Below are positions 25,618 through 28,651 of a DNA stretch of 64,000 bases, one piece after another. Under the pieces are notes generated by a model. That model did not search any database and was not told where the DNA came from. It saw only the letters and a program-made list of their open reading frames with translations. The DNA comes from Chelativorans sp. YIM 93263. GTDB lineage: Bacteria; Pseudomonadota; Alphaproteobacteria; Rhizobiales; Rhizobiaceae. Where the stretch lies: assembly GCF_028767125.1 (NCBI RefSeq), contig NZ_JAKCWP010000001.1:620001-684000 (forward strand), written 5' to 3'. Every line of letters begins with the position of its first letter. Positions within the stretch are counted from its first letter, which is position 1. The position numbers were made by a program, and so were the translations under genes.

Positions 25618-26523
25618 GTGATCACCATTGCAGGCTCCATCAATCTCGACCTTATCGCGCGCGTTGCGCGACTGCCGGAGCCGGGCGAAACCGTGCCGGG
25701 GCGCGACTTTGTCACCGCGCCGGGCGGCAAGGGAGCTAATCAGGCACTCGCCGCGCGCCGGGCGTCCGCGGCTGTGCGCATGGTCGGGGCAGTAGGGGCC
25801 GACGCCTTCGCCGGTCAAGCCTTGTCGCTCCTGAGAGAGGCCGGCGTGGACCTCTCGGGGGTCAAGGAAACAGCGGAACCCACCGGTACGGCGATGATCC
25901 TAGTGGGCGATGATGGCGAGAACGTCATCACCGTCATCGCGGGCGCCAATGGGCAGGTTTCGGCGGCGGATATCGAGGCGGCCGCGTTTCGCGCGGGAGA
26001 ATTCGTACTCCTTCAGCACGAGATCCCGCTCGCCACCGTTAAAGCCGCCTTGAAATCCTGCCGTGCGGCCGGGGGCGTCTCGCTGCTCAACACAGCGCCG
26101 TTTCATGCCGAGGCCGCGCCGCTCCTCGGGCAAGCCGATTACATTATAGCCAATGAGACGGAATTCGACCTTTATGCGGAGGAGCTGTCGCTTGTCGGCA
26201 GCAGCCGCGAGGAGAAGATGCGGGCTTTTGCGTCCGAGAGCGGGCGCACCCTCGTCGTCACTCTCGGAAAGGAAGGCGTGCTCGCCGCCACGCCGGAGGT
26301 TTTCTTCCGTGTTCCCACACTCTCCGTTGTGCCGGTCGATACGGTCGGTGCGGGCGACACGTTCTGCGGTTACCTGGCAGCCGGCCTCGCCGAAGGATTG
26401 GCGCTCGAGGCCGCATTGCGGCAGGCCGCCGCTGCCGGCGCACTCGCCTGTCTCAAACCCGGCGCCCAGCCTTCCATTCCTTTGCGGGCCGAAGTGGACG
26501 CAGCGCTCGACGTCAGCGCCTGA
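25618..26523 (+). CDS. rbsK: Ribokinase-like PfkB carbohydrate kinase
   Basis: 301 residues, GTG start at 25618 with GGGAGG about 9 bases upstream. Ribokinase features: GSINLDLIARVARLPEPGETV, TAPGGKGANQALAARR, VGADAFAGQALSLLREAGVD and DTVGAGDTFCGYLAAGLAEG with the catalytic Asp. It phosphorylates D-ribose or a related sugar/nucleoside. No rbs transporter is adjacent, so the substrate is not fixed. Confidence 0.85.
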   Translation: MITIAGSINLDLIARVARLPEPGETVPGRDFVTAPGGKGANQALAARRASAAVRMVGAVGADAFAGQALSLLREAGVDLSGVKETAEPTGTAMILVGDDGENVITVIAGANGQVSAADIEAAAFRAGEFVLLQHEIPLATVKAALKSCRAAGGVSLLNTAPFHAEAAPLLGQADYIIANETEFDLYAEELSLVGSSREEKMRAFASESGRTLVVTLGKEGVLAATPEVFFRVPTLSVVPVDTVGAGDTFCGYLAAGLAEGLALEAALRQAAAAGALACLKPGAQPSIPLRAEVDAALDVSA

Positions 26524-26921
26524 TTCGCACGAGAGCGGCTCCCTTCGCTCGTCATCCTTTGGTATTCGCTCCGCCCAAGGACGGAATAACGACTGTTTCT
26601 GCTGACCACCGGCGCACCAACGCCTCTGCTAGGCACCTCCCTAAGCGATTAGCTGCGAGGTCGATGCCGGCGTTATCCCCTCCCTTGTGGGCAATAAAGC
26701 GACTTCAACATCTTAGCTGGAGCGTAGCAGAAGCTAAGTGTTGGAAACCGCAAGAGAGGGGCTCGCCGGCTGCAACGTAGCGCGCCAACCACGCTCCGAA
26801 TTTTATCCGCGTGCGGGGATAAAAAATGGCGCCTCAGACATTTCCTCGGCAGATAAGCATTTGTTTTTGCTCGATATCAGAAAAAAGTTTGAGCTTTTTC
26901 GGCTGATTTTATCCTACAACG
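26524..26921. other. Non-coding stretch with a long imperfect hairpin
   Basis: No open frame here has a ribosome site or recognisable protein pattern. The main structure is a two-part hairpin: outer arms 26677-26687 (CCCCTCCCTTG) and 26751-26761 (CAAGAGAGGGG), one mismatch; inner arms 26706-26718 and 26732-26743 around CTTAGCT/AGCTAAG, one bulged base; loop 26719-26731. AT-rich sequence at 26808-26920 may hold a promoter for the structured element that follows. Confidence 0.5.
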
Positions 26922-27296
26922 CCCAGCCGCTCTTATCATGCACCCCATCGCCCTCACGGGAACCGGGTCCGGACCGGGGATCAGGGAGGGCGGCGGCAGC
27001 CTCCCCCTGTGGTGCTCCGGTAGCCACAGGCATGTGAGGGCCCGCAACAGGCCGGCGGCGCCGGGGTGCTGGGTGACAGACAGCATCGCCGGAAAAGCCA
27101 GGCACCGGGTGAGAGACGGTGTCGGGCAGCCGCGGAGAAGCCGCTATGGCTTCGTCTTCGGCCCGGCCAAGACCACCCCCTAATTGGGTGCAGCCGGGCA
27201 GGAGAGAGAAGCCCGAGTGACCGGCCAACCGCGGGACAGCGGCCGGCGGGGCGCGTGGAACGCGCCACTTAAACTAATAGAGAGGCTCGGAACACG
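26922..27296. ncRNA. Candidate structured non-coding RNA (unidentified family)
   Basis: About 375 GC-rich bases in which perfect hairpins follow one another. An 8-bp stem 26950-26957/27034-27041 (GCCCTCAC/GTGAGGGC) encloses GGGAGG/CCTCCC (26984-26989/27000-27005) and CCTGTGG/CCACAGG (27006-27012/27024-27030). Then come CCGGCG/CGCCGG (27052-27057/27087-27092) enclosing TGCTG/CAGCA, CACCG/CGGTG (27103-27107/27117-27121), GAAGCC/GGCTTC (27137-27142/27148-27153) and GGCGCGT/ACGCGCC (27250-27256/27260-27266). The ends (AGCC..TCT near 26925, AGAGGCT near 27291) could close the whole. It lacks RNase P, tmRNA, SRP and 6S signatures. The strand is not settled; plus is slightly favoured. Confidence 0.5.
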
Positions 27297-27367
27297 CGCC
27301 CCGTTTCCCGATCTTTGACAAACCCCGGCGGAGAAGAGCCGCGCGGGAACGAATAGGTATGCCTTCA

Positions 27368-27380
27368 CCTCATCCTGAGG
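27368..27380. repeat. REP-like short palindrome
   Basis: CCTCATCCTGAGG (5-bp arms, 3-base loop) followed by AGGGC. Motifs of this shape are widespread intergenic repeats in Hyphomicrobiales genomes. Only one copy is in this window, so its repeat nature is inferred from general knowledge. It lies just past the coaBC 3' end. Confidence 0.4.
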
Positions 27381-27433
27381 AGGGCCGCTTACCCGGCTTG
27401 GCAGCGATGCCGCTCGCGCTCGGGCCGGGGCCG

Positions 27434-28651
27434 TTACTTCGCAAGCCTCTCGGCCACCAGCGCTGCAAGGCGTTCGGCCACGGCGTCCTTCGACATTTCG
27501 GGCCACTCCTCCACATGTTCGGTCCCCACGACCTGCACGCGGTTGCGTGCGCCCCCCATCACGCCACCCGGTCCCACTCCGCTGTCGTGCGAGACATCGT
27601 TAGCCACGATGATGTCGGCGCCCTTTTTCAGGAGTTTTACGCGGGCGTTCTCGATGACGTTTTCCGTTTCGGCCGCGAAGCCGATGACGAGTTGCGGGCG
27701 ACTTCCGTGATGGCCGATCTCGGCCAGGATGTCGGGGTTCTCGGAGAGCGTAAGCGTCGAGCCGTATTTGCCCTTCTTGATTTTCTCGGCACTTTGCGTC
27801 TCCGCGCGCCAGTCGGCGACGGCGGCGACGAAAATCCCCGCGTCGGCCGGAAGACAGGATTCGACCGCCTCGCGCATCTCCCGCGCGCTTTCGACATGGA
27901 CCGTCCGTGCGCCGACGGGGTTGGGGATTGTCACGGGCCCGGAAATCAGATGCACATCCGCCCCCAGCCTCGCCAGCGCCGCGGCGATGGCATGGCCCTG
28001 TTTGCCGGAAGAGCGGTTGGCAATGTAGCGCACGGGATCGATCGCCTCGTGCGTCGGACCGGAGGTCACGACGATTCGTTTCCCCGCGAGCGGCTTTTTA
28101 CCGTCGTCGAGAATGTTTTCTATCGCCGCGACGATCTCCAGCGGCTCGGCCATGCGGCCCTCGCCGGCCTCACCGCTTTCGGCCATCTCGCCGCTGTTGG
28201 GGCCGGTAAATCGGATACCGTCCTTTGCCAGGGTTTCAAAATTGCGCCGGGTTGCCGGATGTGACCACATCGCCGGGTTCATCGCCGGCGCCATGAGCAC
28301 CGGTTTGTCGGTGGCGAGCAGGACGGCCGAGGCAAGATCGTTCGCCAGCCCATGAGCAAGTTTCGCCATGAGATCGGCCGTTGCCGGCGCCACCGCGACA
28401 AGATCGGCCTCGCGGGCCAGCCGGATATGGCCAACATCCTGCTCGTCCTGGCGGTCGAAAAGGTCGGTAAAGACATGATCGGCCGACAGCGCGCCGACGG
28501 AAAGCGGCGTGATGAATTCCTGCGCGGCACGCGTCATGATGCACCGCACGGCTGCACCCTGTTCGCGCAGCCGCCGGATCAGGTCCAGGCACTTATAAGC
28601 CGCGATACCGCCGCCGATGATGAGAAGAACGCGCTTTCCCGAAAGGGCCAT
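27434..28651 (-). CDS. coaBC: Bifunctional phosphopantothenoylcysteine decarboxylase / phosphopantothenate-cysteine ligase
   Basis: 405 residues. The N-terminal CoaC flavoprotein domain (about 1-185) has GGGIAAYKCLDLIRRLRE, the SVGALSADHVF helix and VLMAPAMNPAMW. The C-terminal CoaB domain (about 190-400) begins GKRIVVTSGPTHEAIDPVRYIANRSSGKQGHAIA and carries GFAAETENVIENARVKLLKKGADIIVANDVS. It makes 4'-phosphopantetheine for coenzyme A from 4'-phosphopantothenate and cysteine. Follows ubiB on the minus strand with a 76-base gap. Confidence 0.95.
   Translation of the reverse strand: MALSGKRVLLIIGGGIAAYKCLDLIRRLREQGAAVRCIMTRAAQEFITPLSVGALSADHVFTDLFDRQDEQDVGHIRLAREADLVAVAPATADLMAKLAHGLANDLASAVLLATDKPVLMAPAMNPAMWSHPATRRNFETLAKDGIRFTGPNSGEMAESGEAGEGRMAEPLEIVAAIENILDDGKKPLAGKRIVVTSGPTHEAIDPVRYIANRSSGKQGHAIAAALARLGADVHLISGPVTIPNPVGARTVHVESAREMREAVESCLPADAGIFVAAVADWRAETQSAEKIKKGKYGSTLTLSENPDILAEIGHHGSRPQLVIGFAAETENVIENARVKLLKKGADIIVANDVSHDSGVGPGGVMGGARNRVQVVGTEHVEEWPEMSKDAVAERLAALVAERLAK

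Follow-up and report, generated by a model that had tools for sequence, protein, structure and literature searches.

The locus and its predicted RNA

The window analysed here, a stretch of 64,000 nucleotides, holds an intergenic element between rbsK (ORF 25618-26523, + strand) and coaBC (ORF 27434-28651, minus strand). When the copies of this element in the same genome are aligned together with their flanks, the repeated unit spans from about 26813 or 26895 to 27345, 27361 or 27380, which corresponds to a length of about 450-560 bp. The features discussed below are the following, all on the + strand.

26813..26823, +, upstream motif GCGGGGATAAA, common to many copies, in inverted orientation to the TTTATCC box some 90 bases 3' of it
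26908..26914, +, –35-like box TTTATCC, conserved in alignments A1 and A2 at a constant distance 5' of the –10-like box
26934..26939, +, –10-like box TATCAT (majority TATAAT), from its conservation in A2
26947..27350, +, proposed RNA, from comparative structure, promoter-like spacing and the tail hairpin; putative start placed by the –10-like box, 3' end between about 27310 and about 27350
26948..26993, +, P1, 5' hairpin, arms 26948-26955 and 26986-26993 (RNAalifold, 95 copies)
26957..26962, +, pseudoknot 5' strand CGGGAA, complementary to 27305-27310, covarying across genera in a fixed register
26994..26997, +, P0 5' strand CGGC, pairing with 27242-27245
26998..27241, +, variable branched middle domain, differing in length and sequence between subfamilies
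27242..27245, +, P0 3' strand GCCG, pairing with 26994-26997
27247..27303, +, T, terminal hairpin, outer arms 27247-27257 and 27293-27303 (29 distinct stems)
27305..27310, +, pseudoknot 3' strand TTCCCG, complementary to 26957-26962
27322..27350, +, tail hairpin, CCCCGGCGG...CCGCGCGGG version, one of two interchangeable 3' modules among the genome's own copies

The first-pass annotation of this DNA had described 26922-27296 as a densely structured stretch and had proposed comparing its fold with dinucleotide shuffles on both strands. On the + strand the predicted fold reaches –190.5 kcal/mol, against a mean of –172.0 (sd 6.2) in 100 shuffles, none of which is equally stable (z –3.0), while on the minus strand z is –1.56 and 7 of 100 shuffles are equally stable; the description of the stretch as densely structured is thus borne out. 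Its ends have to be moved. Since the likely start lies near 26947, where relatives place it, and conserved structure continues to 27310, with the tail hairpin near 27350, a start at 26922 is about 25 bases too early, inside promoter-like sequence, and an end at 27296 costs T its 3' arm and leaves out the pseudoknot strand as well as the tail hairpin. The closing helix is a different one as well: the outermost helix of the single-sequence fold uses bases 5' of the likely start and is not part of the comparative structure, where the corresponding place is taken by P0 (26994-26997 with 27242-27245). A CCTCATCCTGAGG-type repeat adjoins the 3' end of the window copy (27363-27390), and in another copy (L016) a similar repeat is found within the spacer between T and the tail hairpin.

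The earlier view that no credible protein gene is present agrees with two results. In a Pfam search of the six ORFs of the region, five gave no match at E<=1 and the sixth a single one, at E 0.15 and below its cut-off; moreover, when 15 copies of the same genome were compared with the window copy, 11 of 11 indels in the RNA part had a length not divisible by three. A protein gene was rejected on these results. The element was likewise rejected as a known Rfam RNA, a class that includes RNase P, tmRNA, SRP, 6S, HEARO and the known riboswitches. The search of Rfam 15, already suggested by the first reading, found nothing at gathering score anywhere in the 64,000-nt window, the window copy included; between 26500 and 27500 it returned three matches at E<=10, all with E 4.5 to 8.2. 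Among 20 relatives no match attained the gathering score, and six sub-threshold ones (E<=0.1) all lay outside the RNA. ARAGORN detected neither tRNA nor tmRNA in the window. No paper was recognised as describing this RNA family in a literature search that covered few subscription journals.

A conserved frame around a variable domain

In the copies compared the RNA design is conserved: a TATAAT-like box, P1, P0 enclosing the variable branched domain, T, and a pseudoknot that links P1 with the bases after T. The starting set of 143 copies was reduced to 119 by dropping exact duplicates and those with fewer than 120 bases after the search pattern, to 102 by dropping bodies shorter than 480 bases, and to 95 by dropping seven bodies in which no stem of 7 bp or more precedes a TTCC-like motif; thinning at >=93% identity left 46 copies for the comparison of strands. 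As a consequence of the third step the counts given for T are conditional on a stem, a condition covered by the finder control reported below.

Each of the eight outer pairs of P1 is formed in 92 to 95 of the 95 copies, many of which were gathered by a pattern lying inside P1. The P1 loop (26970 region) contains a perfect palindrome that occurs as TCCGGA or as TGCGCA, both alleles being found among the copies of a single genome, and such a palindrome could allow RNA dimers. The four pairs of P0 (alignment columns 129-132 with 440-443) are each formed in 95 of 95 copies, one of them as C-G in 54, A-U in 30 and U-A in 11. A fifth pair next to them is not formed in 44 of the 95. Two adjacent hairpins with GGT-NNN-AGA loops (27067-27085 and 27103-27120) are seen in the middle domain, and their stems and the middle three bases of the loop differ among the genome's own copies. 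Of two relatives, each with a single detected copy, one (L161) is without about 230 bases of middle domain found in the other (L166); since L161 keeps P1 and, by eye, T, the middle domain looks dispensable.

Compensatory change, which had been named in advance as a check on homologues, was found in the P0 pair just described, in the stems of T and in the pseudoknot. T has 29 distinct 12-bp outer stems among the 95 copies, with 323 Watson-Crick and 10 G-U cells, i.e., 333 of 348, and a G-U to C-A ratio of 10:3, the hairpin of one copy (L015) having been placed by hand. A finder that asks for a perfect stem of at least 10 bp followed by the TTCC-like motif recognised T in 85 of 102 bodies, and 0, 0, 0, 1 and 0 of 102 in five shuffled sets; long hairpins were present in 64 of 76 cross-genus bodies, with 3, 3, 0, 4 and 4 in five shuffled sets.

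Cross-genus copies were collected with a covariance model, R1, built from 55 sequences over 101 positions and covering the promoter-like region and P1 together with the bases that follow. For the pseudoknot, 71 of these copies were used, because the first set had been picked in part by a pattern containing CGGGAA. In a fixed register, complementarity over the 47 distinct strand pairs scores 236.4, a value reached by none of 1000 permutations (mean 215.1, maximum 226.4) in a scheme that ignores the relatedness of the sequences. Covarying pairs include TGGGAAC/GTTCCCA (L249), CGAAG/CTTCG (L273), CGGGAC/GTTCCG (L225), AGGGAA/TTCCCT (L172), GGAAC/GTTCC (L270) and TGGAGT/ACTCCA (L171); two copies, L243 and L264, do not fit. 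A free-register control, for which the hairpin was present in 71 of 77 bodies, was not discriminating (mean of 4.83 in 23 variant copies vs 4.42 with mismatched partners). The alternative version of the tail hairpin, GGCCAGA-stem-GGGCGTGGC, was found across genera in a comparison made without the second R1 matches of L235, L205 and L160.

As to the strand, RNAalifold on the 46 non-redundant copies gave –163.0 for the + strand against –50.2 (sd 4.8, lowest –62.1) in 30 column shuffles, and the reverse strand of the same copies scored almost as well, –157.0 against –44.5 (sd 6.1). The two structures differ in their G-U to C-A cells, 229:63 on the + strand vs 185:148 on the minus strand, and over all 95 copies the ratio in the + structure is 563:138. 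This excess of G-U favours the + strand; by itself it does not separate RNA from single-stranded DNA, in which G-T pairs are tolerated too. Taken with the negative Rfam searches, the fold excess and the finder control, the covariation supports the part of the first-pass annotation that saw here a lineage-specific structured RNA outside the known families.

Promoter-like boxes and upstream modules

The hexamer taken as a –10-like box was evaluated in alignment A2, whose 80 cross-genus rows were gathered with a covariance model that includes the promoter-like region. Counted on all rows, secondary R1 matches included, its second base is A in 97% and its sixth base T in 96%, and these two positions are the most conserved in real –10 boxes. 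About 19-20 bases 5' of it in A2 lies TTTATCC, which is not a canonical sigma-70 –35 sequence, and a scan of 26500-27450 with the sigma-70 consensus reported no promoter.

Further upstream, modules alternate among copies, some of which carry an inverted GGGGATAAA motif and others a doubled TGTCAGCA motif, and the TTATCCAC core of the upstream motif is presumably similar to a DnaA box. In the window copy, the putative upstream motif GCGGGGATAAA at 26813..26823 stands at the start of upstream module U1. A CGTC-type REP palindrome, CGTCATACCA...TGGTATCCATG, is found 5' of seven of the genome's own copies (L035, L036, L037, L038, L040, L044 and L046), so that different kinds of repeats pile up at these sites.

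Copy number and taxonomic range

The genome of the window carries at least 24 copies, counting full, partial and diverged ones: after merging of pieces, at least 19 belong to the main subfamily (including a partial tandem copy) and at least five to a diverged subfamily. This count rests on 40 scored candidates among 54, with 30 places listed before merging. The 3' module is also observed at four contig ends of the same assembly, G000 (C1, 7-33; C3, 1-40; C12, 604655-604693; C22, 362758-362784), indicating that the assembly probably broke in further copies and that the true number may be higher. A first search of 101 genomes had given, besides the window copy, six scored copies in this genome at 92 to 95% identity, and matches in 18 other genomes; a pattern scan found, among the matches listed, Chelativorans, Mesorhizobium, Nitratireductor, Tianweitania, Aquamicrobium and other Rhizobiaceae assemblies.

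With R1 at E<=0.01 and 13 candidates scored per genome, matches were obtained in 107 of 297 sampled Rhizobiaceae genomes, from 52 of 109 genera, of which about three genomes could be chance; some of the weakest matches (e.g., L184) look like coding sequence by eye. The other 190 genomes were without a match at that sensitivity, and the RNA is accordingly not essential in the family. In a class-wide sample of 289 genomes, R1 at E<=0.001 matched the genome of the window and only two of the 288 others, weakly (families f136 and f90; E 3.3e-4 and 4.8e-4). When more candidates were scored per genome, copies at E<=0.001 numbered 31 (G158), 29 (G048), 24 (G162), 23 (G201), 21 (G113) and 21 (G229), and some other genomes have one detected copy. 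A distant group (L170, L173, L174, L176, L177, L178, L180 and L185) shows a P1-like GATCGCCGGGATC and a T-like 11-bp hairpin and, with weak R1 scores (E 5e-6 to 0.003), is probably a further subfamily.

Mosaic copies and likeness within genomes

The left and right ends of the genome's own copies are alternative modules, and internal stretches, such as TCCGGA vs TGCGCA in the P1 loop, combine differently from copy to copy; the copies are therefore mosaics. Several sites can be recognised in more than one species because both flanks match, namely L036 with L008, L010, L080 and L090, L042 with L024, L091 and L138, and L040 with L150, while other cross-species pairs have one flank in common. Own copies of the main subfamily are 34.9 to 83.4% identical to their same-site counterparts in other species, and in 14 of 14 comparisons the mean identity to paralogs in the same genome (84.6 to 91.7%) is higher. 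Gaps are counted as differences, so deletions lower some of the same-site values (L080, L063). Own paralogs that are closer than same-site copies of other species form the pattern of concerted evolution; no such signal is given by the diverged copy L049 (47.6% to its own paralogs, 46.4 and 39.5% at the same site).

At the window site, no R1 match lies near coaBC in 15 other genomes of the genus, and in at least nine of these another gene, by eye an acetyltransferase, directly follows coaBC. As rbsK and the element, over 26523-27434, stand where genus mates have that other gene, a rearrangement must have affected this site. A second site is full in G004 and empty in its close relative G005 (about 590 vs about 20 bp, no duplication visible), a difference that could equally be a deletion, and in two congeneric genome pairs (L163/L164 and L176/L170) the RNA is alike and the flanks are unrelated.

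Dispersal over many sites, mosaic and partly tandem copies, a presence that varies by species at the window site and the G004/G005 site, and likeness confined to the RNA in the two congeneric pairs would all suit a non-autonomous mobile or selfish repeat. In such a repeat an enzyme encoded elsewhere would use the hairpins and the pseudoknot as its substrate, in RNA or in single-stranded DNA, and the promoter-like boxes would serve mobility alone. One survey points the same way, since it regards a motif as likely selfish when it occurs in many copies per genome (PMC11109978). Against a repeat of this kind, several sites are common to more than one species, one RNA design is combined with different upstream modules, and no target-site duplication accompanies the G004/G005 difference, itself possibly a deletion.

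The search for a mobilising enzyme points in the same direction. The Y1 transposase of the IS200/RAYT type (PF01797) was not found in the genome of the window, and a mobiliser of this kind was rejected; it occurs in 2 of 15 copy-rich genomes and in 2 of 18 genomes with no detected copy, 16 of the latter defined by the R1 search and two, G002 and G014, by DNA search only. Small GIY-YIG genes lie, in differing orientation, beside copies in three genomes (L279 in G004, L040 in the genome of the window, L105 in Tianweitania). The one next to L040 is the sole such gene found in its genome, which speaks against a GIY-YIG mobiliser. No transposase-like neighbour was recognised among the grouped ORFs by reading, and no recurrent protein neighbour was found with a crude ORF caller, some of whose groups are spurious. 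The window copy has no match in 72,556 plasmid and 50,697 phage records, so that a phage- or plasmid-borne element was discarded as well; L178 has no plasmid match, and a Mesorhizobium relative matched plasmids only within its first <=57 bases, a different repeat. Overall, a mobile or selfish repeat appears less likely than an RNA gene family and is its most serious competitor.

Position relative to neighbouring genes

A cis-acting role, as a terminator, an attenuator or an mRNA-stability structure at 3' ends or between genes, on either strand, is suggested by the genome of the window: of its 20 scorable copies, 11 are flanked by genes called convergent, and several genes end at about 30 bases or less from where the aligned element ends. 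In other species, however, 48 scorable loci comprise 10 convergent, 14 divergent and 24 co-directional ones, with no orientation bias relative to neighbouring gene pairs (Fisher p 0.86), and a general orientation rule was discarded, the convergent excess being seen in the own copies and not elsewhere. In addition, no terminator-like site is found in 26500-27450, little G-U excess is seen on the minus strand, and a pseudoknotted design of 370 bases with its own –10-like box exceeds what a terminator needs. A cis-acting element is thus improbable.

The first-pass annotation had also considered a riboswitch-like element; this reading, or that of another leader element of the downstream gene, would suit the complex fold with a pseudoknot. 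This second half of its interpretation is not sustained. Of the own copies flanked on both sides by genes from a crude ORF caller, 4 of 20 have a co-directional 3' gene, as do 24 of 48 scorable loci in other species; the downstream genes are unrelated and differ from copy to copy, and there are many copies per genome. A leader function is consequently very improbable, and the riboswitch reading appears largely refuted.

Comparison with known systems

Being dispersed, palindrome-rich, intergenic and present in tens of copies per genome, the family resembles REP/BIME repeats, and true CGTC-type REPs adjoin some copies. REPs are palindromes of 20-40 bp with GTAG or CGTC tags (PMC3733652). The present unit differs from them in its length of about 450-560 bp, its long-range helices, its pseudoknot and its promoter-like boxes, and from REP/BIME associated with RAYT in that the genome has no Y1 transposase. 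RIME and the Sm repeats are likewise mosaic intergenic repeats of rhizobia; by its general description, about 210 bp with two palindromes, RIME would differ from the present unit. RIME/Sm repeats are named for exclusion in an RNA screen of S. meliloti (PMC2245857).

OLE, ROOL, GOLLD and HEARO are, like the present RNA, hundreds of bases long, multibranched and pseudoknotted, and HEARO, the IscB-associated RNA, can be multi-copy. The present family differs from all four in having no Rfam match to any family, and no nuclease gene was recognised beside its copies; neither IscB nor TnpB was recognised by reading and grouping the neighbouring ORFs. A candidate motif of Rhizobiales, Rhizobiales-1, is tabled without an Rfam number (PMC2864571; Weinberg et al., 2010) and, judged by its main-text description, could be the same family. 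Finally, rRNA genes offer a model for the evolution of dispersed copies kept similar within a genome; they show no sequence relation to the present family, whose copy number varies much more between genomes.

A proposed family of noncoding RNA genes

The explanation that we prefer, at a probability of roughly 0.6, is a multi-gene noncoding RNA family whose members have their own promoters, are kept alike within genomes and act in trans. The comparison of copies establishes a conserved structure, the number of copies and their taxonomic range, an exchange of modules, and the likeness of copies within a genome; the structure is conserved by compensatory change, as expected of an independent noncoding RNA gene family. 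From these we infer transcription, its start and end, action in trans, gene conversion as a cause and a function of any kind. The element between rbsK and coaBC would thus be one gene of a dispersed multi-copy family of Rhizobiaceae, each copy with its own promoter-like sequence. Its product would be a strongly folded + strand RNA of about 370 to 400 bases, in which P1, P0, T and the pseudoknot form an invariant frame and the middle domain varies. Such an RNA would act in trans, and a regulatory function or that of a scaffold in an RNA-protein particle seems most likely; the many copies may provide dosage, and gene conversion would keep them alike, as for rRNA genes. The multi-copy, mosaic and family-wide nature of the element, like its true ends, was not part of the earlier reading.

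A more specific version is put forward tentatively, at somewhat less than even odds: a new pseudoknotted noncoding RNA class, specific to Rhizobiaceae, that has dozens of genes, each with its own promoter, which evolve in concert as rRNA genes do, and that acts in trans as an RNA-protein particle or a ribozyme. To our knowledge, bacteria have few large structured RNAs apart from those of the ribosome, and almost all of these are encoded by one gene per genome. The family described here is absent from Rfam, attains 31 copies per genome, and combines a fixed frame with a swappable middle and with copies homogenised within genomes. The species with a single detected copy make a knock-out direct. 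For the Rhizobiaceae, which include nitrogen-fixing symbionts, the finding would mean a new RNA class of considerable size or else a repeat that is unusually elaborate.
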